A stretch of 64,000 nucleotides of DNA, from positions 992,001-1,056,000 of the forward strand of contig NZ_CP026309.1 of NCBI RefSeq assembly GCF_002906575.1, in the 5' to 3' direction. The stretch is from Salinigranum rubrum. Its GTDB lineage: Archaea; Halobacteriota; Halobacteria; Halobacteriales; Haloferacaceae. The position numbers were made by a program, and so were the translations under genes. The notes under the pieces were generated by a model. It saw only the letters and a list, made by a program, of their open reading frames with translations. It was not told where the DNA came from and did no database searches. This document shows positions 43,623 to 56,964 of the stretch, piece after piece; positions within the stretch are counted from its first letter, which is position 1, and the number at the start of each line of letters is the position of its first letter.

Positions 43623-43790
43623 ATGGTGGACTCCACCCGATCCGATGGACGGGATCGCGCCGCAGACCACGACCCCGCTGTCGAGGTCGAGACATACGAG
43701 GTCGACGGCGGCACCGTCTTCTTCGACGCCGAGAACCCCTTAGCGTGGGTCGAGGCGACGCGTACGGTGCGACTCACCGACGTCGCTTAA
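43623..43790 (+). CDS. 55-residue haloarchaeal protein (DUF7331-like): integration target, 3' end rebuilt
   Basis: A small acidic protein: MVDSTRSDGRDRAADHD, then VETYEVDGGTVFFDAENPLAWVEATRTVRL, ending TDVA. I recall the pattern (ETYExDGGxVFxDAENPLAW) as a conserved haloarchaeal family, possibly DUF7331. The last 69 bases before the final two codons are the left copy of the element's direct repeat. The last codons (GTC GCT TAA) come from the element side; the right copy ends GTG GCC TGA. The encoded residues are the same, so the gene stays functional. Confidence 0.85.
   Translation: MVDSTRSDGRDRAADHDPAVEVETYEVDGGTVFFDAENPLAWVEATRTVRLTDVA
43715..43783. repeat. attL: left 69-bp direct repeat
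   Basis: Identical over 69 bases to 56811-56879. Before it the sequences differ (C at 43714, T at 56810), after it too (C at 43784, G at 56880). It lies inside the 3' end of the DUF7331-like gene. Confidence 0.95.
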
Positions 43791-43792
43791 GC

Positions 43793-43817
43793 CCGATATC
43801 GCGCTTATCGGTTTTTT
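43793..43817 (+). terminator. Hairpin plus T6 right after the target gene
   Basis: CCGATA (43793-43798) and TATCGG (43806-43811) form a 6-bp stem, followed by TTTTTT at 43812-43817. It is element DNA just after the rebuilt stop codon and fits an intrinsic-like terminator of the small gene. Confidence 0.55.
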
Positions 43818-44260: not shown

Positions 44261-44350
44261 GTTGGAGCGTGTTGCGGTCGTGGCTGCGTTCGGTTGAGTG
44301 AGCGCGGGGACGCTCACTCCACCTCAACGACCACTGACCGCTGAACACGT
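44261..44350. repeat. Left copy of the 90-bp inverted repeat with hairpin
   Basis: About 90% identical to the inverse of 55473-55562, with weaker similarity continuing about 15 bases on either side. It contains the perfect hairpin GAGTGAGCG, 6 bases, CGCTCACTC. See findings for the compensatory change. Confidence 0.85.
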
Positions 44351-44697
44351 GGTCATGTGATTGAGTTTAGAGGGTGGTCGGCCAAACACATAGTGTGCTT
44401 GCGCAACCGAACAATGACACCAACATTCGCACCACTGTGTAAATTCCGTCCTCAAACGAGGGATACTACTCGTCGGTCTGTGAAGTTCGTCAGAGTAACG
44501 TCACAGCTCACTGTTTACTTCAGTCTCTCTTCTGATGAGTAGCCGTAGCCCCACCCAACAGAACAGACTAAAAATTGGATCGTAAAAAATCATGGACGAT
44601 GGTTCGTTACGTGGATTTGCGTCAAACTTGTTAAGAGTGTCATACTATAGAAGATGCACCGATTATGTAGTCTTGGCGTTAGTGATGATCGATTAGG

Positions 44698-46032
44698 TCA
44701 CCTCTGCAAGCTCAACCTATCAGGTAGTCTCTGAAGTGGATCTCCAGGGAAGTCAAACCATTTTGGAACTTCATGCCGTGGTGTCAAGTTCTCTACGTAG
44801 CCAATATTCATCCCAAACAACAGTGATGCATCTTTTTCCACTTTATACTCGCTCGTACTAATCACCACTCCCGAAATGGACTTACTCAGGTTCAATTTTC
44901 CATTAATTCCGTTGCAGAGACTATCAAACTCGTCGTAAGTGAAATTTGAAAGGAATGGTACCCCTATGTGCAAGATGTTGGGTGAGTCCGCCGAATATTT
45001 CCCTCGTGCTCGGTTGAACTGTCGGAGTACCTGTTTCACTCGGTCGACCTCAAATTCCTCAAGGATTCCGATGAACTGAGCGTGATTAATCAGAAACTTG
45101 TCTGTTTGCTCTTGACTTCCAGGCACTTTCGTATGCAGGTGCTTTCCACTAAACTTACTCAGTTCGAACTCCTGACCGAGATGTTCTTTCACCTCGGGTC
45201 TGACATACTTATTATAGAACTTCAGGGGGACTTGACCAACCGTATTAGGAGTCCTTTCAACAAACATTTGATTTTCGTGATTATTCAGGGGAATAAATGA
45301 CACATCACAAAAAATGATTCTTTCCGTGTGAAAGCCGTCTATTTTTGACTCGTCAGGAAGATGCTCACTGAAGCTATGAACCTCGCTACTGCTTGGCTCA
45401 CGAAATATGTCCACTGTTATGATTAGATCGCCGTCATACTTCGACTCGATTGCCTTCTGAATCACCTCTTGCTTTCCCCCGTGCTTTTGATGTCTTCCAG
45501 AAACGGTGTTACACCGCTTACACTCGACAAAAATTTTTGACTTGTCAGAAATTAGAAGGTCAGGTGCCTTCGTGTTTCCTTCCTGAATGAAGTCAACTTG
45601 GTAGCCCTCTCGGGCATAGGCTGCAGCTGTCTCAACTTCGAAGAGGGTCTCTTGCCACTCATCGACGTTTTGAATTCTCGGTCTTAGACATGGATGTACC
45701 TCCTCTGAAACAATTTTTCCACTGGGGTTCCTTACCTGTGATCCAGAAATATGTCGTAGATGTTCCCCTATGACTACCAATTGGTGTGTGTTTGTAGAAT
45801 AATGTTCATCCGTGAATAATTCGGGTGCGTCGATCTTTTCATCGAACAACTCAACCCTCCCGCGATGGTACTTAACCACGAGTGGATGGGGGCTGGCTTG
45901 GTGCTTGTGGTCCCGAAAGTCATCAGTGTATTCTTTGGATCGTTCTTGTTCCAGCCATTCTTCCCCGATAAAATCCACCGCTCTTTCGAAGTTTTTTCTC
46001 AACTCGCGGGAACCTGCATCATAATCCACCAT
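44698..46032 (-). CDS. PD-(D/E)XK nuclease-like protein
   Basis: A 444-residue protein. The nuclease core is visible at about 125-175: Glu132/134 in FEVETAAAYAREGYQV, Pro157-Asp158 in APDLLI, and Glu170-x-Lys172 in KIFVECKR. The rest is predicted soluble, mixed alpha/beta. No helicase or specificity domain is seen. It follows the 265-residue gene on the same strand by 79 bases, so a two-gene operon is likely. Restriction-like or defence role is inferred. AT-rich codon use. Confidence 0.72.
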   Translation of the reverse strand: MVDYDAGSRELRKNFERAVDFIGEEWLEQERSKEYTDDFRDHKHQASPHPLVVKYHRGRVELFDEKIDAPELFTDEHYSTNTHQLVVIGEHLRHISGSQVRNPSGKIVSEEVHPCLRPRIQNVDEWQETLFEVETAAAYAREGYQVDFIQEGNTKAPDLLISDKSKIFVECKRCNTVSGRHQKHGGKQEVIQKAIESKYDGDLIITVDIFREPSSSEVHSFSEHLPDESKIDGFHTERIIFCDVSFIPLNNHENQMFVERTPNTVGQVPLKFYNKYVRPEVKEHLGQEFELSKFSGKHLHTKVPGSQEQTDKFLINHAQFIGILEEFEVDRVKQVLRQFNRARGKYSADSPNILHIGVPFLSNFTYDEFDSLCNGINGKLNLSKSISGVVISTSEYKVEKDASLLFGMNIGYVENLTPRHEVPKWFDFPGDPLQRLPDRLSLQR

Positions 46033-46909: not shown

Positions 46910-47523
46910 TGTATAAAAAATTGAAATAATGAAAAGAAAGGGGGCTAGTTGTGTGTCTCAGGTATGTGACAATCACCCCACTTCTTGACTACGTGGATGG
47001 ACGTCCACATACATGCCGGGTCGCGCGCGTCGCGCCCGCCCCTTGCCAACGGAGTTGGCATCTCACTTGTTTGGGTCGCTAGTAGGCTATTGCGCAGATA
47101 CCAGTCTAAGGTTCCTACCAGAATCGCTCCTCGTATCTAATACTGCAGTGTATGATGGCATGGTTTGTATTTGAAGGGTGGCAGTGGGGTCATCCATCAC
47201 GTTGCATGTAGGAATCTGAAAGGTGATGTGCTATGCATCGTCACTCAATAATCAGATAGAACTTATATACCTCAAATTCGGACAGACATTATTGCATGGC
47301 CAATTTCGGGTGAGCAAATCATCAAGAGGGTAACGATCACATTTCGGTTGGTTACTACCTGTCTCTATTACAATCCACGTTCTGCACGTGTCTTTGGCGA
47401 GGTTAGGATGACTTCCCTAGGGTACATGAGTGGAGCGCGTGGGTTGTAATCTTGATGGGGGTGGGGTCTCCGCAAATTTCTATCGGAGACACAACGTGAT
47501 AAGACATTCTTGTCCTAATCTAT
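46910..47523. other. 614-base divergent gap with palindromes
   Basis: Between a minus-strand and a plus-strand gene. Contains a local GC-rich patch (about 47016-47044), a hairpin ACGTGGA-TGGACGTCCAC near 46991-47008, and TGCCAAC/GTTGGCA (47044-47050, 47054-47060; loop GGA). No gene seen. Probably promoters of both flanking genes and a regulatory site. Confidence 0.5.
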
Positions 47524-48591: not shown

Positions 48592-48686
48592 ACATAATTT
48601 CAATTTATCTGGACGGAAGCCTCCATACATCTTCTATCGCCAATTGTCAGGTTAAGTATGGAATTCGCCTACGATAGGTGCTGTCT

Positions 48687-48735
48687 ACGTGGCTTGGTTC
48701 AATACACACGCTGAGGTGCGTGGTTTCACCCACGT
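48687..48735. repeat. ACGTGG/CCACGT stem-loop (convergent gap)
   Basis: Outer stem ACGTGG (48687-48692)/CCACGT (48730-48735), inner stem CACGC/GCGTG (48707-48711, 48718-48722). It lies between the 3' ends of two convergent genes. Same architecture as the units near 52.1-53.7 kb. Confidence 0.5.
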
Positions 48736-48756
48736 GAAGACACAAAGGAAGTATCG

Positions 48757-49244: not shown

Positions 49245-50114
49245 ATGACCCATCACTCTGTCACGAGAACGCTAAGTGACCTTTCTTTTGCGGTGTACGA
49301 AATTGAGTCAGGTGATGTTGACACGTACGACCCGATAGACGACTCGTGGGTGTGGCATGGTAATCCAATACAAGGTGATGCTGAACGGGCAGTAGAGCGA
49401 TTATTCGAGACTACTCTTGGGTATGGTGTCCGAAATATCGATCACAAACAAAAGTATCCACTTCAGAACGCGTTAGGACTCAAACTAAACCATTCCCGAC
49501 GAAGTTTCATTTCGTATCCGCCTGAGTGGGTTCCAGAATATCTAACGAACGAGATTGTATCGAAATCGTCATCTGTAGGTGATGCCGATCCACTTGATCT
49601 CGTAGAAAGAGATGGAATCCCAGACTTGCTTGTATACACGAAGGAGTCCCCACATGAATGCACGCTTGTTGAGGTGAAAATGCCGCCAGAGACATTCGAG
49701 CCCACCCAAATCGAGTGGTTCAAGCAATTTCCATTCTTGGATATCCGTGTGGCATGCGTATTTGAAAGCCAGAACCAACGCGATCAATTCATCAGCTCAT
49801 ACACAGTGGAGAAGTTGCTACAAAATGTAGCACAAGAAGCACCTGACCGTCCCGAACTACCGCCCAGTGAACTCCGAGATGTAATTGAACAGGTAGAAGT
49901 TGGGGACCGCATTCTCTTCAATGAGCGCCAATCTCCTTACACGGTCGTTAGTACAGATGCGACGCGTTCAACCAATCAGAGAGAGGTGAGTGGAATAGAG
50001 GTACAATCACGGAACGGTAATACGTACGTACTTTCTGAGGCTGGTGATTGGTATTGTGGTAACGGGCCTTACTGTCGGTCCTTGTGGTGGGCGGAGTTAA
50101 TCACCGACTCATAG
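49245..50114 (+). CDS. VRR-NUC-like nuclease
   Basis: A 289-residue protein. The nuclease-like core runs at about 45-165: Glu in ERAVERLF, GIPDLLVYTK (Pro126-Asp127), CTLVEVKMP (Glu143-x-Lys145) and Q155 in PTQIEWFKQF. PD...ExK...Q is the VRR-NUC arrangement. The C-terminus has a short beta region with ERQSPYTVVSTDATR and WYCGNGPYCRS. Typical VRR-NUC proteins act on DNA junctions or replication forks; here it stands alone, so a defence role is inferred. Confidence 0.68.
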   Translation: MTHHSVTRTLSDLSFAVYEIESGDVDTYDPIDDSWVWHGNPIQGDAERAVERLFETTLGYGVRNIDHKQKYPLQNALGLKLNHSRRSFISYPPEWVPEYLTNEIVSKSSSVGDADPLDLVERDGIPDLLVYTKESPHECTLVEVKMPPETFEPTQIEWFKQFPFLDIRVACVFESQNQRDQFISSYTVEKLLQNVAQEAPDRPELPPSELRDVIEQVEVGDRILFNERQSPYTVVSTDATRSTNQREVSGIEVQSRNGNTYVLSEAGDWYCGNGPYCRSLWWAELITDS

Positions 50115-50355
50115 TCCATTGGCAAGAGTTACCCTGATTGGTCGGAATCGGAATCGGCTTACCATTTTAGTTAGAGCCCGCTACGTAAATGACCTCTATG
50201 TGGCTGGTTCTACTGCTTCGCATTGACGTCAGCTACGTAGTGGAATTATTTTCCAGAAGCAGGTCCATAGCTGAGTTACAGGGGTGATGGCCACATCAGG
50301 AAATGTGGATGACACTACCTACACCGCCCGAGTTCATATGGACAACATCGGAATC
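50115..50355. other. Convergent gap with a wobble-paired stem-loop
   Basis: Contains CTATGTGGCTG (50196-50206) and CAGCTACGTAG (50230-50240), an 11-bp RNA stem with two G-U pairs. The matching stem at 53144-53187 is Watson-Crick paired. No gene seen. Confidence 0.6.
50185..50250. repeat. Long repeat, copy A, first part
   Basis: Matches 53135-53200 of copy B (for example GTGGCTGG, TTCTACTGC, TGACGTCAGC). The second part of copy A lies at 52105-52455, beyond the 529-residue gene. Confidence 0.6.
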
Positions 50356-51945
50356 TCATGCATATGCTTTTTCAAATTCTAAAAAAGTCTGGAGAATGTC
50401 AAACAGAAGGGTGATTGACATCCCCCAGCTTGCCTGTGGGTACGGCAAGTAGCCGTGGGCGATTTGATTTCGGAGATTCTGCCCAGACAACTCCCCGTAC
50501 CTGTATCGGAGATACGTAACCCAAGACTCGCTTAGCTCTTCCTCTACTTGATATAAAACGCCAGCCATTGACCTTCGTTTCAGTTCGCCTGTTTCTTCAT
50601 TTTGGCTCAAAACACTCTTTCCGCTATCGGCTGCCAGCGTTCGAATAACAGCTTCAAGTTGCGTCATACCGATGTGAACAGCCGCTGAGTGATTGTGTTC
50701 AAACAGGTGAATTACAAAATCTGTAATATAAGCGTGAGTGTCTGCTGAAAGTACATCCAAAGTATTGAATAGAACAAACAGGTCACCTTCTGTTAGAAGA
50801 CCTCGATTTTGCAGGCGATAGTATACAGACTGTCTAATGCTCTGAATAAATTGGACCATTGCTCCGTAGCTGTGTGGTAAATCTTCTATCGTACTTTCGT
50901 CCTGTGAGTAGGATTCACCAGCTTGTGAAACCGTTATTCGCTGGACAAAGCCCATGATACTACCCTCGGATATGTCTCTGGCCACCTCGATATCGGGAGC
51001 GAATATATTATGATTGAGAAGCCATTTAATCGCGAAGATAGCGTTTCGTTCGTTTTTCCAGTCTCGGAATTTCTTGACAAGGCCCTCCACTGCATCATCA
51101 AGCTCACTTATATCTTCCTCCGATGGCTCATGTGTAATCTCCGCCATCTGTTCAATGCTTAATTTATTACCTTCAATGAATTCCTGTTCCCACTCAACAC
51201 GCTGAGATTCATCAATCCATTCATTACATTCGGTTATAGCTTCTTTAGCTATTGTCGCCCGAATGGAATGTTTTTCATTTGTCTTCAGCGATTCAAGCTC
51301 GTCATTGTAGGATTTGATGATTGCGGCGATCGCAGGTCCCGTATCCAATCCTTCGGAATCACGAACCTCCAAGTTCTGCCGCCATAGCTTCCTATGGTTT
51401 CTGTAGTCCTCGGCAGTGATGGCTCTCTCTGCATGAGCCTCAAGATAATCAATCAGTATTCCAATTGTGGGTGTACCTGAAACTGAATTCAGATTGGCTG
51501 CTATCGTCTCAAGAATTCTAAAGACTGAGTCAATGGCTATCGACTCCTTATTTTCAACGAGAAAGAAGAGCGCCAGTTTGACCTCGGCTTTTAATTCACT
51601 TTCATGATTGAGGTCGCTCAGTAGATCAATTCGTTGTATAACCAGAATAGGGAAGAGACTGCTCCAGTCCTCTTCAATCACAGTATCGATAGCCTCTCTG
51701 AGATCATCAAGTGCAGGTTCAGCTCCGTGGTGATACTCTCTATCCTCAATCCATCTGGATAGTCCAACAAGGAAACTCACCAATGGGTGCTCCGTCTCAG
51801 ACTCGCATATTTCGACTCGAATTTGCTCTGGTGACCGTCCCCAGTCTTGTCGTAGCTCACGAAGTACGGACGAAAGTTCAATATCGAATCTCGAACTCTG
51901 AGGGCCGTTTTCAATCAGCGACTCAAGTTCTTCCGTGAGGCGCAT
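50356..51945 (-). CDS. DUF4209-like protein with a C-terminal HEPN-type Rx4H motif
   Basis: A 529-residue, almost entirely helical, acidic protein. Near the end is GQNLRNQIAHGYL: Arg492-x4-His497, with Asn493, as in HEPN ribonucleases and in DUF4209. A helix with VLYQVEEELSESWVTYLRYRYGEL precedes it. No membrane segment or other catalytic motif. DUF4209 proteins occur in antiviral contexts. RNase activity is inferred from the motif only. The gene seems inserted into a noncoding repeat copy. Confidence 0.62.
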   Translation of the reverse strand: MRLTEELESLIENGPQSSRFDIELSSVLRELRQDWGRSPEQIRVEICESETEHPLVSFLVGLSRWIEDREYHHGAEPALDDLREAIDTVIEEDWSSLFPILVIQRIDLLSDLNHESELKAEVKLALFFLVENKESIAIDSVFRILETIAANLNSVSGTPTIGILIDYLEAHAERAITAEDYRNHRKLWRQNLEVRDSEGLDTGPAIAAIIKSYNDELESLKTNEKHSIRATIAKEAITECNEWIDESQRVEWEQEFIEGNKLSIEQMAEITHEPSEEDISELDDAVEGLVKKFRDWKNERNAIFAIKWLLNHNIFAPDIEVARDISEGSIMGFVQRITVSQAGESYSQDESTIEDLPHSYGAMVQFIQSIRQSVYYRLQNRGLLTEGDLFVLFNTLDVLSADTHAYITDFVIHLFEHNHSAAVHIGMTQLEAVIRTLAADSGKSVLSQNEETGELKRRSMAGVLYQVEEELSESWVTYLRYRYGELSGQNLRNQIAHGYLPYPQASWGMSITLLFDILQTFLEFEKAYA

Positions 51946-52651
51946 CAGTTATTCACTACAGAAATTGCTACGTATTCATGATTACGCCAACCCCGAGAAG
52001 CATACATTATGACCATCTGAAACCCATGATGAACATCACTCGCTTAACAATCGGGGACACAAAACTATGCTTCAGCAGCTTAGTGTCCTAAGCTACACTG
52101 CACCCTCGTTTATTGAACTACTATGCTACCCTATCTAAGCGGTACACTGACCGCCAAGTGGATGAAGATAACACACGGTGAACGTGTGTGACGTTAGCCA
52201 CGTAACGACTACTCGTCTGACCCAACCACGTTTCTTGGGTGTTGATAGATAACCTCCCCTGTGTCTCTGATTGTTCCTTTTCGCTTCTAATCTTGACGGG
52301 GGGGACCGATAGTCCTTCACCAGAAGGGAATCTGAGACCAACAGTAAACCCTGTGACTGCATCTTACGAACTCCGATGACTGAGTAGTGGTATCCATCGT
52401 CTGAACAAGGATTTCACACAGTGGTGTGTATGGTGGCATCCTTGGAATCTGTGAGACGGTTCTGACCGAGCATGAGTTGGGCCGTTCCACCACCAGCTAT
52501 TAACACACTTCAGGAGTTGTACTGAATACAGAGCGCGTAGGCAGCAACAGTCTTGAAACTGCAAGCAGGGGGTTCAAGACATTATGGCCGCAAATGGACA
52601 TGTCACCATCTGTTCGTCCGTTATGCACAGGTGAGACGCCCACTTTGTCAC
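51946..52651. other. 706-base gap carrying copy A, second part
   Basis: AT-rich noncoding DNA upstream of the DUF4209-like gene. It carries the stem ACACACG/CGTGTGT (52171-52190) within repeat copy A; several short frames are not convincing. Confidence 0.5.
52105..52455. repeat. Long repeat, copy A, second part
   Basis: About three-quarters identical to 53240-53580, including TTGAAC...CTA, ACACACGGTGAACGTGTGTG, TCTAATCTTGACGGG and CTTACGAACTCC-like blocks. No coding potential seen. Confidence 0.65.
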
Positions 52652-52957
52652 ATGGCCTCAAATGACCCTCCTCGCGAGAGTGAAGACGAATCCGATGTCC
52701 AACAAGCCCTCGACGGTGAGTGGCACGAACAGCAAAACACTCCAGTGACGGTTCTGACCGACACGAAAGAGGACTCTCAGTCGTCGGCGCGTGTGAGTGT
52801 GCTTGAACCCGAGAGTGATGAGAAAGAAGCCGTCGCCCTGGCGGTTGAATCACAGAACGAGGATCACTTAGTCAAAATCGACGTCGATTCAGCGTTGGTG
52901 TTATCTGATAAACTCGGACAGGTAGCCGAGAGGGTGTCATCCAAAGTAGGTCGGTAG
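52652..52957 (+). CDS. Small acidic protein of unknown function
   Basis: A 101-residue protein: MASNDPPRESEDESDVQQALDGEW, an acidic middle, and a C-terminal half with VALAVESQNEDHLVKIDVDSALVLSDKLGQVAERV. The acidic halophilic composition and a hydrophobic second half suggest a real gene, but no family is recognised. The frame is open further upstream (52553); ATG 52652 is preferred by composition. Confidence 0.45.
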   Translation: MASNDPPRESEDESDVQQALDGEWHEQQNTPVTVLTDTKEDSQSSARVSVLEPESDEKEAVALAVESQNEDHLVKIDVDSALVLSDKLGQVAERVSSKVGR

Positions 52958-53134
52958 CCATAGTTGCGGTCGTGCTGAATACACTCTCTGTTTGTAGCAC
53001 GCGGTTCGTATCAAGCTCTGAGTGTTTCGACAGATCCCAGTATCACCTTGACTGTCTCAGAACGCTCACTTCGTACGTAGCCCATGGCGGTTCAACCATC
53101 TTGACTGGTATTCAACTCACATATCATTCCCACG

Positions 53135-53580
53135 GGTGATCTCCACGTGGCTGGATTCTACTGCCCCGCACTGACGTCAGCCACGTGACGAACTGTGTTA
53201 GAATGACGAGACAGACAAGACAACATATGGGCTATCTCTTGAACCTGTTCTACACCCCTATCCAAGCAGCACACCGACGGTCATGTGGGTGAGGACGACA
53301 CACGGTGAACGTGTGTGGCGCTACCCACGTAGCAGCCCGACTTGACACGTTTCTTCGGTGTCGACGGATGGCCTCCCCCGTGTCTCTGACTGCTCCTCTT
53401 CGTTTCTAATCTTGACGGGTGGAATCGATAGTCATTCACCAGAGTCGATTCTGAGGCCAGCAGTAGGTCATGTGACTACATCCTACGAACTCCACAGACT
53501 GATGAGTGGTATCTCCCGTCTGAGGAGAGAGTTCACACAATAGCACGTATTGTAGCGTCACTGAATCTGTAAGACGAACA
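53135..53580. repeat. Long repeat, copy B (intact unit)
   Basis: Stem 1: CACGTGGCTG (53144-53153)/CAGCCACGTG (53178-53187) with a TGACGTCA palindrome inside the loop side. Stem 2: ACACACG, GTGAA, CGTGTGT at 53298-53317 within a wider ATGTGGGT/ACCCACGT stem. Then TCTAATCTTGACGGG. The only contiguous copy. Confidence 0.65.
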
Positions 53581-53609
53581 GAGGACTATAGGATGTGTAG
53601 AGGTGTTCC

Positions 53610-53705
53610 AGGTGGCAGCCCAAGCAGCACGCTGATTGTCACGTGGATGAGGACGACACATGGTGAAGGTGTGTGAGGCTACCCACGTGACGACCAATCT
53701 GTGAT
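53610..53705. repeat. Long repeat, copy C (partial)
   Basis: Carries CAAGCAGCACGC, then CACGTGG, ACACATGGTGAAGGTGTGTG and CCCACGTG: an outer CACGTGG/CCACGTG stem of 7 bp around a weaker inner stem. It corresponds to the middle part of copy B. Confidence 0.55.
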
Positions 53706-53982: not shown

Positions 53983-54458
53983 TAGTCGTGATTCTCATCC
54001 ACAGGCTGTGTTGAGGTACCAGTCTCTTCCGAGGGGTGCCGATCCAGTACGTGATTCAAGCACGTGAAGGCCACATACGTATATTCACTTGTATGAAAGA
54101 TACTCACCTCTCAATCTACCTAAGTGACCGTCACTTAGTCTATTCGCGCCGCTTCACGTGGATATACGTGAAGACGGTACTTCCACCTCCGTGCTCGGCA
54201 CGCGGTTAATTCCACGTGCATGGGATCCATCCCCTTGCTCACAATCGCGGGAGTGCCATCAGGCACGTCACACAACCAACCGCCTTGAAGCGGTACCATG
54301 CCACTGTACATGTTTTCGAGAGCATGGCGTTGCGAGATCACGTCTCGGGTGGCTAATCCTTCGTAGTTGTGAGAATGTCACGAGTGTATATAAACTCTCT
54401 CTTGAAGAGTCAGTCAGTTGTCCGTAAGGTCCTAACTCGTGGAATCAGTGGGGTCGGT
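53983..54458. other. 476-base gap with palindromes
   Basis: Contains TAAGTGAC/C/GTCACTTA (54121-54137) and CTTCACGT/GGATAT/ACGTGAAG (54152-54173), both perfect. They precede the HEPN-like gene and could be operator sites. No credible gene seen. Confidence 0.55.
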
Positions 54459-55448
54459 ATGGACTGCTCACCTGAAAAGTGCCTCAGACTGTTCGAGCAG
54501 TTCGATCTAACGGATTTCTACGAGAGTCGCCTCGCAACGTATGCTTTGGAGGATTACTACACGAGTGTACTTTCTAACGTCGGTGGGGAATACCTGGACT
54601 TCGACACGGATCTTCAGGATCAAAACATCGGCCCACAGTGGAATGTAGCAAAGAGACGACTGACGTCAGTCGAGGTGGTCAACGACATACCCTCAAACTA
54701 CAGTCGGGCCATCCATCAGTTGTCTCGAACTCGTCAGTCAGTGGCTCACGGCTATGACCATCGACCAGACAACAGACATCTGATGGAAGCGTATGAGATT
54801 GCCGTGGACTGGCGGGAATGGCTTACTGAGAAGGCTAAACAGTATCACAGGCTCGAATCAGATACAGTCAGCAGGGAAGTTCTGATTACAGATACGATCA
54901 ATGCTCTGAATGCATCGTTAGTAGACCCAGAGAAGTACGACTACGATTTCATCCGTGTAAAACAAAGAGAAATTAATGATGAGATACGAGACAAACTGGA
55001 GTACGAATTTACTCCCTTCACCGTTGACGACATGGCCATTCAACTCAGGAGCAGCGTGGATGAAGTGGATGAGTTCTATCCTCACGAAGATTCACGTGAG
55101 GTGCAGCGTGAGCTGTGGCATCTGTTTGAATGGGCCATGGAGATGAAACGTTCTGTTGACAATCTGTACTATACTGATGTGAATCGAATCGAGCGTAAGG
55201 TTGCCGTCAAGACTGCGACACACGGGGGAATGTGTTCTGTCGTCCACGAGTACGACGAGTCTACGGGAGAAATCCAGTTGATGGTACATGAGGCCGAGAA
55301 CAAGAAGGAACACACGTGGTGTGAAGTAGATCTTCTTCCCGAGGACGATCGAACGATACTCCTACAGAAAAGCGTGGGTGAAACAGTAGAGGCGATTCTC
55401 GGTGTTGGTGAGTCTGGTGAATGGTACGTCCGCCATGTGGTTAGCTAA
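54459..55448 (+). CDS. HEPN-type protein with Rx4H motif
   Basis: A 329-residue acidic protein. Near the N-terminus, LSRTRQSVAHGYDH contains Arg92-x4-His97, the HEPN RNase motif, within helical sequence. The C-terminal third (about 255-329) is beta-rich. The GG-rich stretch before ATG 54459 could be a ribosome site; the frame is open from 54369. No kinase or nucleotidyltransferase partner is adjacent, unlike typical HEPN/MNT pairs. RNase activity is inferred. Confidence 0.6.
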   Translation: MDCSPEKCLRLFEQFDLTDFYESRLATYALEDYYTSVLSNVGGEYLDFDTDLQDQNIGPQWNVAKRRLTSVEVVNDIPSNYSRAIHQLSRTRQSVAHGYDHRPDNRHLMEAYEIAVDWREWLTEKAKQYHRLESDTVSREVLITDTINALNASLVDPEKYDYDFIRVKQREINDEIRDKLEYEFTPFTVDDMAIQLRSSVDEVDEFYPHEDSREVQRELWHLFEWAMEMKRSVDNLYYTDVNRIERKVAVKTATHGGMCSVVHEYDESTGEIQLMVHEAENKKEHTWCEVDLLPEDDRTILLQKSVGETVEAILGVGESGEWYVRHVVS

Positions 55449-55472: not shown

Positions 55473-55562
55473 ACGTGTTCAGCGGTCAGTGGTCGTTGAG
55501 GTGGAATGAGCGTTTCGCGCTCATCTCCACCGAAACGCAGCCACGACCGCAACACGCCCAAC
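55473..55562. repeat. Right copy of the 90-bp inverted repeat with hairpin
   Basis: Inverse of 44261-44350 with few differences. Its hairpin is GGTGGA-ATGAGCG, loop TTTCG, CGCTCAT-(C)-TCCACC. It lies between the convergent HEPN-like gene and the integrase gene. Confidence 0.85.
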
Positions 55563-55602: not shown

Positions 55603-56640
55603 TTAGATGTTCGAAAGATACTGTCGTCGTTGTTCTGTCTTTTCGTCCTCTGAACGTCGGTCGTAGTGCTCTGAAAGTACGTCTTGAGATACGTTCATAC
55701 GATCACTGACGACCTTTTCTGGAACATCTTTTCGGAGGTGGTGTGTGATTGCTCCACGACGCACTGGATGACCTGAGACGCTACTCGGACAATCACTTGC
55801 ATCTACTGACCGCTGAGCCGCATCACATTCTGCAGGAATACGATTGTGCGGACACTCAATTCCATAGGCACATGGGCGTGTAGCGGTCTGGAACCAGCGT
55901 CGGAGTGTCTTTACAGGTGCTCGCCCATTCTTGGTTGTAAACAGAGGCTTTCGTCCGTATTCATCGTTTACCTTAGTGCGGTTCTGTTTGATGTAGTCGT
56001 GAAGAATTTCGACCACCTCGCCAGAAAGTGCTATGTATCGCTCTGCATATTCGCCATTTTTCAGTGGTGTTCCTTCGTCTGGACGATGTCTAATTCTGAG
56101 ACGATTCTTCGTCATCTCAACGTCATCAACATCCAAACCACGAAGCGTACCTGAACGAATTCCAGCGTGCCATGTAAGCGATAGCAACGCATGTTCACGG
56201 CTTGCGTATGCGAATCTCCGAAGATAATTGAGAACCTCGTTAGCTGCCTCCGTCTCCAGTATCTCTTCCCGTGCTTGTGGATCTCGTTTTGGGAGTTCCA
56301 CTCTCTCTGGAACAGACGGATTAATTGCATCGATGGACGCACAGAACTGGAGAAAGCGACGTACTGTGCTCACACGCTGTGCAAGTGTACTTTGTGCGAT
56401 GTCGGCTTTAATTTGGAGACGGAAACTGTGGACCGTTCTCGCAGTCACGTCTCGCATGTCTGTTATGTTCTCTTCTTCAAGCCAGGTAGTGAACTGATCC
56501 ACGTGGAAGCGTTGCAGCTTGAGGGTAGCTGCCGCCAATTCGTCCATTCGGCTCTCCACCCAGAGTCGTGCTGCATCCTCTGGTGTGAGTGCTTCTAAGC
56601 CTGATCTCGATGTAGCCTTGGTGTGTTGTTCCCCGTTCAT
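55603..56640 (-). CDS. Tyrosine recombinase (integrase) of the element
   Basis: A 345-residue XerD-type integrase. N-terminal SAM-like domain (EALTPEDAARLWVESRMDELAAATLKLQRFHVDQFTTWL) and catalytic domain with AGIRSGTLRGLDVDDV (first Arg), HPVRRGAITHHL (HxxR) and LSEHYDRRS (Tyr). A zinc-like insert is HNRIPAECDAAQ. I chose Met at 56640; the frame is open to 56754 and reaches into the right repeat region. It is adjacent to attR, as usual for such elements. Confidence 0.92.
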   Translation of the reverse strand: MNGEQHTKATSRSGLEALTPEDAARLWVESRMDELAAATLKLQRFHVDQFTTWLEEENITDMRDVTARTVHSFRLQIKADIAQSTLAQRVSTVRRFLQFCASIDAINPSVPERVELPKRDPQAREEILETEAANEVLNYLRRFAYASREHALLSLTWHAGIRSGTLRGLDVDDVEMTKNRLRIRHRPDEGTPLKNGEYAERYIALSGEVVEILHDYIKQNRTKVNDEYGRKPLFTTKNGRAPVKTLRRWFQTATRPCAYGIECPHNRIPAECDAAQRSVDASDCPSSVSGHPVRRGAITHHLRKDVPEKVVSDRMNVSQDVLSEHYDRRSEDEKTEQRRQYLSNI

Positions 56641-56750
56641 TGGTTTCTCTGAACCACCACGATTGGGCAGAACGCGGTGGCAGGCGTACGCGTGACGACA
56701 ACCGCAGCCTGCCCACCGATATCGAGACATACGGGGTCTACGGCGGTATC

Positions 56751-56777
56751 TCAAGGAGTCGCGGTTTGACTCCTTGA
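56751..56777. other. Hairpin inside the diverged target-gene copy at the right end
   Basis: TCAAGGAGTC (56751-56760), loop GCGGTTT, GACTCCTTGA (56768-56777): a 10-bp perfect stem. It sits in a stretch of about 61 extra bases that separate a diverged piece of the target gene (ETYGVYGG, 56724-56747) from the attR repeat. Confidence 0.6.
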
Positions 56778-56810: not shown

Positions 56811-56879
56811 CGTCTTCTTCGACGCCGAGAACCCCTTAGCGTGGGTCGAGGCGACGCGTACGGTGCGACTCACCGACGT
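56811..56879. repeat. attR: right 69-bp direct repeat
   Basis: Identical to 43715-43783. It ends the element; the following bases GTG GCC TGA complete the reading frame of the target gene as DVA-stop, as in the left copy. Confidence 0.95.
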
Positions 56880-56964
56880 GGCCTGACCCTCCGGTCACGA
56901 CACCGGTCACGACGCGCCGCCTCGATGCCGAACTGTTTTGCTCTCGGGCCCGCTTTTCACACCT

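Follow-up and report, generated by a model that had tools for sequence, protein, structure and literature searches.

The window analysed here, a stretch of 64,000 nucleotides, belongs to the chromosome of the haloarchaeon Salinigranum rubrum, and sequences similar to it are found in Haladaptatus, Halobaculum, Natrinema and others. Between 43.7 and 56.9 kb the window contains an island of about 13 kb, with a GC content of 0.44-0.53 as against some 0.62-0.70 in its surroundings. The island is framed by two direct att repeats of 79 nt, which are 95% identical to each other in a self-comparison (Table 1). In a congener (G003) the corresponding site is empty: about 140 bp separate the two flanks, and therefore the island is absent from that genome. 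The tyrosine integrase encoded by the island is phage/Xer-like, its best NCBIfam models being XerC, XerD and XerA at scores far below their cut-offs, and no integron-integrase model reaches its cut-off for this protein. The cargo includes an Mrr/ZorD-like nuclease domain, a VRR-NUC protein and p6, a 529-aa protein of DUF4209/PDC-S39-like type, with genes in both orientations; no IS200/IS605 gene is present in the island. The low GC content, the att repeats, the integrase, the empty site of the congener and the cargo together establish, therefore, that the region is an integrated element carrying defence-type cargo.

The att-bearing DUF7331 gene adjoins a DNA polymerase B gene. At another locus (L090; G270 C1 808000-824000), several related integrase genes follow one another next to a homologue of the protein encoded at 54369-55448 of the window, an arrangement that suggests serial integrations at one site.

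Table 1. Features of the island and their positions in the window
Feature	Position	Strand	Remarks
Left att repeat	43715-43793	+	in the 3' end of a DUF7331 gene (DUF7331 E 6e-20)
Left 84-nt hairpin	44267-44350	+	about -50 kcal/mol; inverted partner of 55473-55557
Copy D (new)	44411-44573	-	3' part of M3, inverted; adjoins the left 84-nt hairpin
Mrr/ZorD-like nuclease domain	44698-46032		island cargo
Copy E (new)	47385-47463	+	5' part of M3, about 66% identical; R2 E 2.9e-4 (window), blastn E 0.004
Hairpin F (new)	48686-48742	+	arms ACGTGG/CCACGT; pattern match; R1 12.9 bits, E 0.098
VRR-NUC protein	49245-50114		island cargo
M1 of copy A	50190-50240	+	aligns with B1 (see text)
p6 (DUF4209/PDC-S39-like)	50356-51945	-	Pfam PF13910 E 2.6e-6; PADLOC PDC-S39 E 1.6e-11
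M2 of copy A	52113-52214	+	inner stem 52171-52177/52183-52189; outer about 52156-52161/52198-52203
M3 of copy A	52226-52458	+	aligns with M3 of copy B (see text); without conserved fold
M1 of copy B	53137-53188	+	stem 53144-53153/53178-53187 (Watson-Crick part)
M2 of copy B	53239-53341	+	inner stem 53298-53304/53310-53316; outer 53283-53288/53325-53330
M3 of copy B	53345-53576	+	
Copy C (M2 only)	53612-53699	+	outer stem 53638-53646/53683-53691, 9 pairs
Hairpin G (new)	54155-54218	+	CACGTGGA...TTCCACGTG; arms only
Right 84-nt hairpin	55473-55557	-	inverted copy of 44267-44350
Tyrosine integrase	55603-56754	-	Pfam PF00589 E 1.3e-9; PHROG integrase E 2.2e-30
Right att repeat	56811-56889	+	direct repeat of the left att repeat

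A modular family of repeats between the cargo genes

The original prediction was that the copies A, B and C belong to one family of noncoding repeats, diverged in sequence and bearing nested stem-loops, and the family is borne out, as the similarity of the three copies lies far beyond chance and no coding signal accompanies it. Specifically, in a self-comparison A2 (52113-52458) matches B (53239-53576) at 75% identity over 349 nt (E 3e-63), A1 (50190-50238) matches B1 (53137-53186) at 84% over 50 nt (E 5e-7), and C (53620-53688) is 86% identical to B2 over 69 nt (E 3e-14) and 77% identical to A2 over 78 nt. The unit is composed of three modules, M1 with the first stem, M2 with the nested hairpin and the noncoding M3 of about 220 nt. 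In copy B the modules are contiguous; in copy A, M1 is followed by the p6 gene and then by M2 and M3, so that the M1-M2 interval holds a whole gene in A as against about 50 nt in B. The M3 sequences of A and B are 78% identical and align without a gap over 214 nt despite 48 substitutions. The homologies between C and B2 and between A1 and B1, in turn, stop where the palindromes end on the 3' side.

The family is also larger than first described, D, E, F and G being added to it. Copies were sought with R1, a covariance model of M2, and R2, a sequence model of M3. D is recovered by blastn (70% over 129 nt, E 2.6e-14) as well as by R2 (120.5 bits, E 1.7e-36). Hairpins F (48687-48735 from arm to arm) and G have only the CACGTGG/CCACGTG arms in common with the family, and the homology of F to M2 is not significant on its own (Table 1); the pattern ACGTGGN15-45CCACGT, however, occurs 3 times against 0.32 occurrences expected. 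All copies sit in gene gaps inside the island, none within a gene, and the detectable ones are confined to 44.4-53.7 kb of the window. None of the modules has an open reading frame or a codon-position bias, and stops are found in every frame in A or B.

Other palindromes share the island with this family. A second, stronger family consists of the two 84-nt hairpins, which are 86% identical over 131 nt in inverted orientation and flank 11 kb of cargo. Their arms are nearly identical, and their tips have diverged and yet remain paired, with one compensatory change included; these hairpins may be ends or inversion sites. Elsewhere in the genome the arms give chance matches only, inside coding genes where these were examined. 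In addition, about 100 nt upstream of B, positions 52974-53037 form an imperfect hairpin repeat of 64 nt (CTGT..ACCCTC / GAGGGT..ACAG), which looks like a short mobile repeat; it occurs solo and without annotation in no fewer than 35 haloarchaeal plasmid records, and also in one genome (G010). The spacer upstream of B thus collects hairpin repeats, since this widespread one sits there too.

Base pairing and conservation of the fold

The first stem had been described as held in A by two G-U pairs and one compensatory pair, and this is what is found: in copy A (50196-50206/50230-50240) 11 of 11 pairs form, two of them G-T wobbles, and between A and B there are one compensatory change, from T-A to C-G, and two one-sided changes. 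In copy B (53143-53153/53178-53188) the stem, which had been described as Watson-Crick, is so in 10 of its 11 pairs, the end pair being C-A. Starting from B, the chance that all 11 pairs are kept through five random changes is low (p=0.008); in the reverse test, where at least 10 pairs are to be kept starting from A, p is 0.13. As proposed, the second stem, ACACACG-GTGAA-CGTGTGT, does not differ between A and B, and C has a weaker version of it with one U-G and one G-G mismatch; the GUGAA loop is the same in all three copies. The ACGTGG/CCACGT stem predicted around it is exact in C alone, A2 having AAGTGG with one mismatch and B2 ATGTGG with one wobble. In M2, copy A has A-U at pair 40-68 where B and C have G-C; this single both-sided change was reached by 273 of 500 shuffles. 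The G-U pairing was moreover said to favour RNA over DNA. Counted in M1 and M2 of every copy, there are 5 G-U against 2 A-C cells, which is not a significant strand bias and does not separate the two.

RNAalifold consensus folds, compared with column shuffles, are better than expected on the plus strand for M1 (z -4.4) and M2 (z -2.6) and weaker on the minus strand (z -2.1 and -1.4, respectively). The consensus fold of M3 on the plus strand gives z about 0, and whole copies fold like dinucleotide shuffles (z -0.45, -0.32 and +0.92). In other words, conserved pairing is limited to the palindromes M1 and M2, and M3, the bulk of the unit, is without it. The structured-RNA reading is accordingly weak. 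What remains of it is the conserved pairing of M1 and M2, with one compensatory change and a few G-U pairs among two or three copies, whereas neither M3, nor the copies as wholes, nor the covariation of M2 rises above shuffled sequence; and the M1/M2 result is equally expected from a DNA palindrome. Scans for bacterial promoters and terminators, unsuited to archaea, gave results at the level of shuffles.

Relatives of the repeats and of their neighbours

Rfam, whose search had been proposed as a check, contains no family that matches the repeats: nothing is found in them at the gathering threshold, and a cmscan of the island at E<=1 yields nothing but a CRISPR repeat below threshold at 56764. 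Searches of the rest of the genome brought up no further copy, and BLASTN against 170 genomes of the family and against plasmids and phages gave none either. Across 392 genomes of the order, R1 has hits in 33 genomes at E<=0.1, with about 39 expected by chance, and R2 stays at chance level there as well as in the 125 genomes of a second large family. Viral contigs and GTDB genomes, scanned by pattern, gave no match or, in bacterial MAGs, two chance matches. These results apply to collections from some of which the window's own genome may be missing. The best matches of the models were rejected as homologues of the repeats, one (G307) overlying an HtpX-like gene and the other (G010) reflecting a true similarity to the 64-nt repeat described above.

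Homologues of p6, 46-62% identical, are present in other haloarchaea without the modules. At twelve such loci neither M2 nor M3 is present, and blastn of the noncoding parts returned nothing relevant. The repeats therefore do not serve p6 as a partner RNA; a type III toxin-antitoxin system, in which a repeat RNA is paired with a toxin gene, was rejected on the same 12 loci. Related elements with homologues of p6, p9 or the integrase have no intergenic repeats of their own, except for a few short ones in one element (L129) and a tandem array in another (L127). The latter (L127:15600-18045) consists of diverged noncoding repeats with a period of about 65, lies about 5 kb from a p6 homologue and is possibly a CRISPR array.

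Interpretation of the repeats

A first reading takes the M1 and M2 hairpins, perhaps together with M3, to be a transcribed, structured noncoding RNA, for example a regulator or partner of the island's defence proteins. Stem 1, kept through five substitutions with one compensatory and two G-U pairs, the exchange at pair 40-68, the constant loop, the better folding of the plus strand and the lack of indels in M3 all point in this direction. Against them stand whole-copy folding energies no lower than those of shuffles, an M3 without conserved fold, the ordinary covariation of M2, the absence of a significant strand bias, of Rfam matches and of homologues in the searched collections, and p6 homologues with no such RNA alongside; on balance, an RNA is possible, if on the unlikely side. 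Haloarchaea do make structured RNA from palindromic transposon ends, namely the TnpB omega RNAs or sotRNAs (Rfam RF02656 and RF02657; PMC12558985), from which the island repeats differ in having no Rfam match at E<=1, no tnpB in the island and no resemblance to the tnpB loci of the host. Decay of a protein-coding sequence is extremely improbable, as the similarity of a short minus-strand stretch of M3 to a reading frame of an HtpX-like protease (tblastn E 0.1) is at chance level given the size of the search; with stops in every frame and no coding signal, an HtpX-like protease pseudogene was dropped. It is also very unlikely that the palindromes are operators, that is, protein-binding DNA with CACGTG and TGACGTCA half-sites that controls island genes. 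M1 does carry CACGTGGCTG/CAGCCACGTG and a conserved TGACGTCA, and the repeats occupy gene gaps, some of them upstream of plus-strand genes (E before 47524, A before 52553); D, however, precedes no island gene in its orientation, several gaps hold two or three hairpins, and no regulator was identified.

The palindromes might alternatively be recombination sites, the CACGTGG...CCACGTG hairpins marking places where genes are inserted or excised by a recombinase, much as at attC sites but without belonging to these. Integrons with attC sites occur in Archaea (PMC9668308), and the likeness lies in hairpins between cargo genes, conserved arms with a variable interior and an encoded tyrosine recombinase. 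In particular, seven intergenic hairpins (F, A1, A2, B1, B2, C and G) have common outer arms, a gene separates M1 from M2 in A alone, homology often stops at the 3' arm, and the flanking 84-nt hairpins keep their arms and vary their tips while staying paired. The island, however, has no IntI, its integrase being of the phage/Xer kind and below integron-integrase cut-offs; its cargo genes run in both orientations, and related elements with similar integrases have no intergenic repeats. The attC core boxes RYYYAAC and GTTRRRY are absent by inspection, the arms reading ACGTGG/CCACGT and the flanking hairpins GTTGCGG and CTGAACA. Recombination sites of this kind are thus unlikely, and it is highly improbable that M1 and M2 form an archaeal hairpin-site system, serving the island recombinase as paired single-strand sites, with A the filled and B the empty site.

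Debris of mobile elements, in the form of palindromic DNA, accounts for the evidence no less well than a functional structured RNA does. Tentatively, and at not quite even chances, we favour decayed palindromic DNA repeats restricted to the island, most likely the noncoding ends of small mobile or cargo-carrying elements. This preference arises because the copies are partial and lie in both orientations (A is split, C is M2 only, D and E are pieces of M3), because homology breaks at the ends of palindromes, as expected of breakpoints or ends, because all copies lie in the gene gaps of one mobile, low-GC island, and because the largest module has no conserved fold and no homologues were found. 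M1, the nested M2 and about 220 nt of M3 would represent the end sequence of one or more such elements, which may have multiplied or been duplicated inside the integrase-borne island; the copies would then have broken into partial pieces, which lie between cargo genes in either orientation. The hairpins may act, or have acted, as DNA structures, either as ends or as sites of recombination to which a recombinase, a transposase or the like binds. Both the mobility of the unit and the working of its palindromes as DNA are what we infer from the sequence. Against a mobile element, the unit has no definable terminal inverted repeats or target duplications and no exact ends common to its copies, the island lacks an IS200/IS605 gene, the tnpB loci of the host are unlike the repeat, and it is odd that no copy was found elsewhere in the genome or in relatives. 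Moreover, the 214 ungapped nt of M3 with their 48 substitutions hint at a constraint on length that is unexpected of debris, and this lack of indels is the best sign of any remaining constraint.

Among known systems, the palindrome-associated transposable elements (PATEs) of Haloquadratum walsbyi (Dyall-Smith 2011; PMC3119063) come closest to the decayed DNA repeats that we favour. They too are haloarchaeal and noncoding, without transposase and with diverged and partial copies, and terminal inverted repeats and target duplications are seen in neither. The island repeats are likewise too short for a transposase gene. PATEs have palindromes close to both termini; in the island unit, whose ends are undefined, the M1 palindrome is found close to where the A/B homology begins on the left, with M2 internal and M3 after it. 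The differences lie in the confinement of the repeats to one island, in their undefined ends and in the lack of a link to IS200/IS605: in the only IS605-type comparison, no similarity was found to the six tnpB loci of the same genome, and genome-wide dispersal is replaced by a single stretch of the window. Because of these last two points the repeats are not filed as PATEs; the best fit is with the general kind of element described under that name, without membership in it.

If they are mobile-element debris only, the repeats represent one more orphan palindromic repeat family of haloarchaeal islands. Active hairpins, on the other hand, would either explain the gain and loss of genes in low-GC, defence-type islands or represent a novel RNA of archaea that is linked to defence genes.
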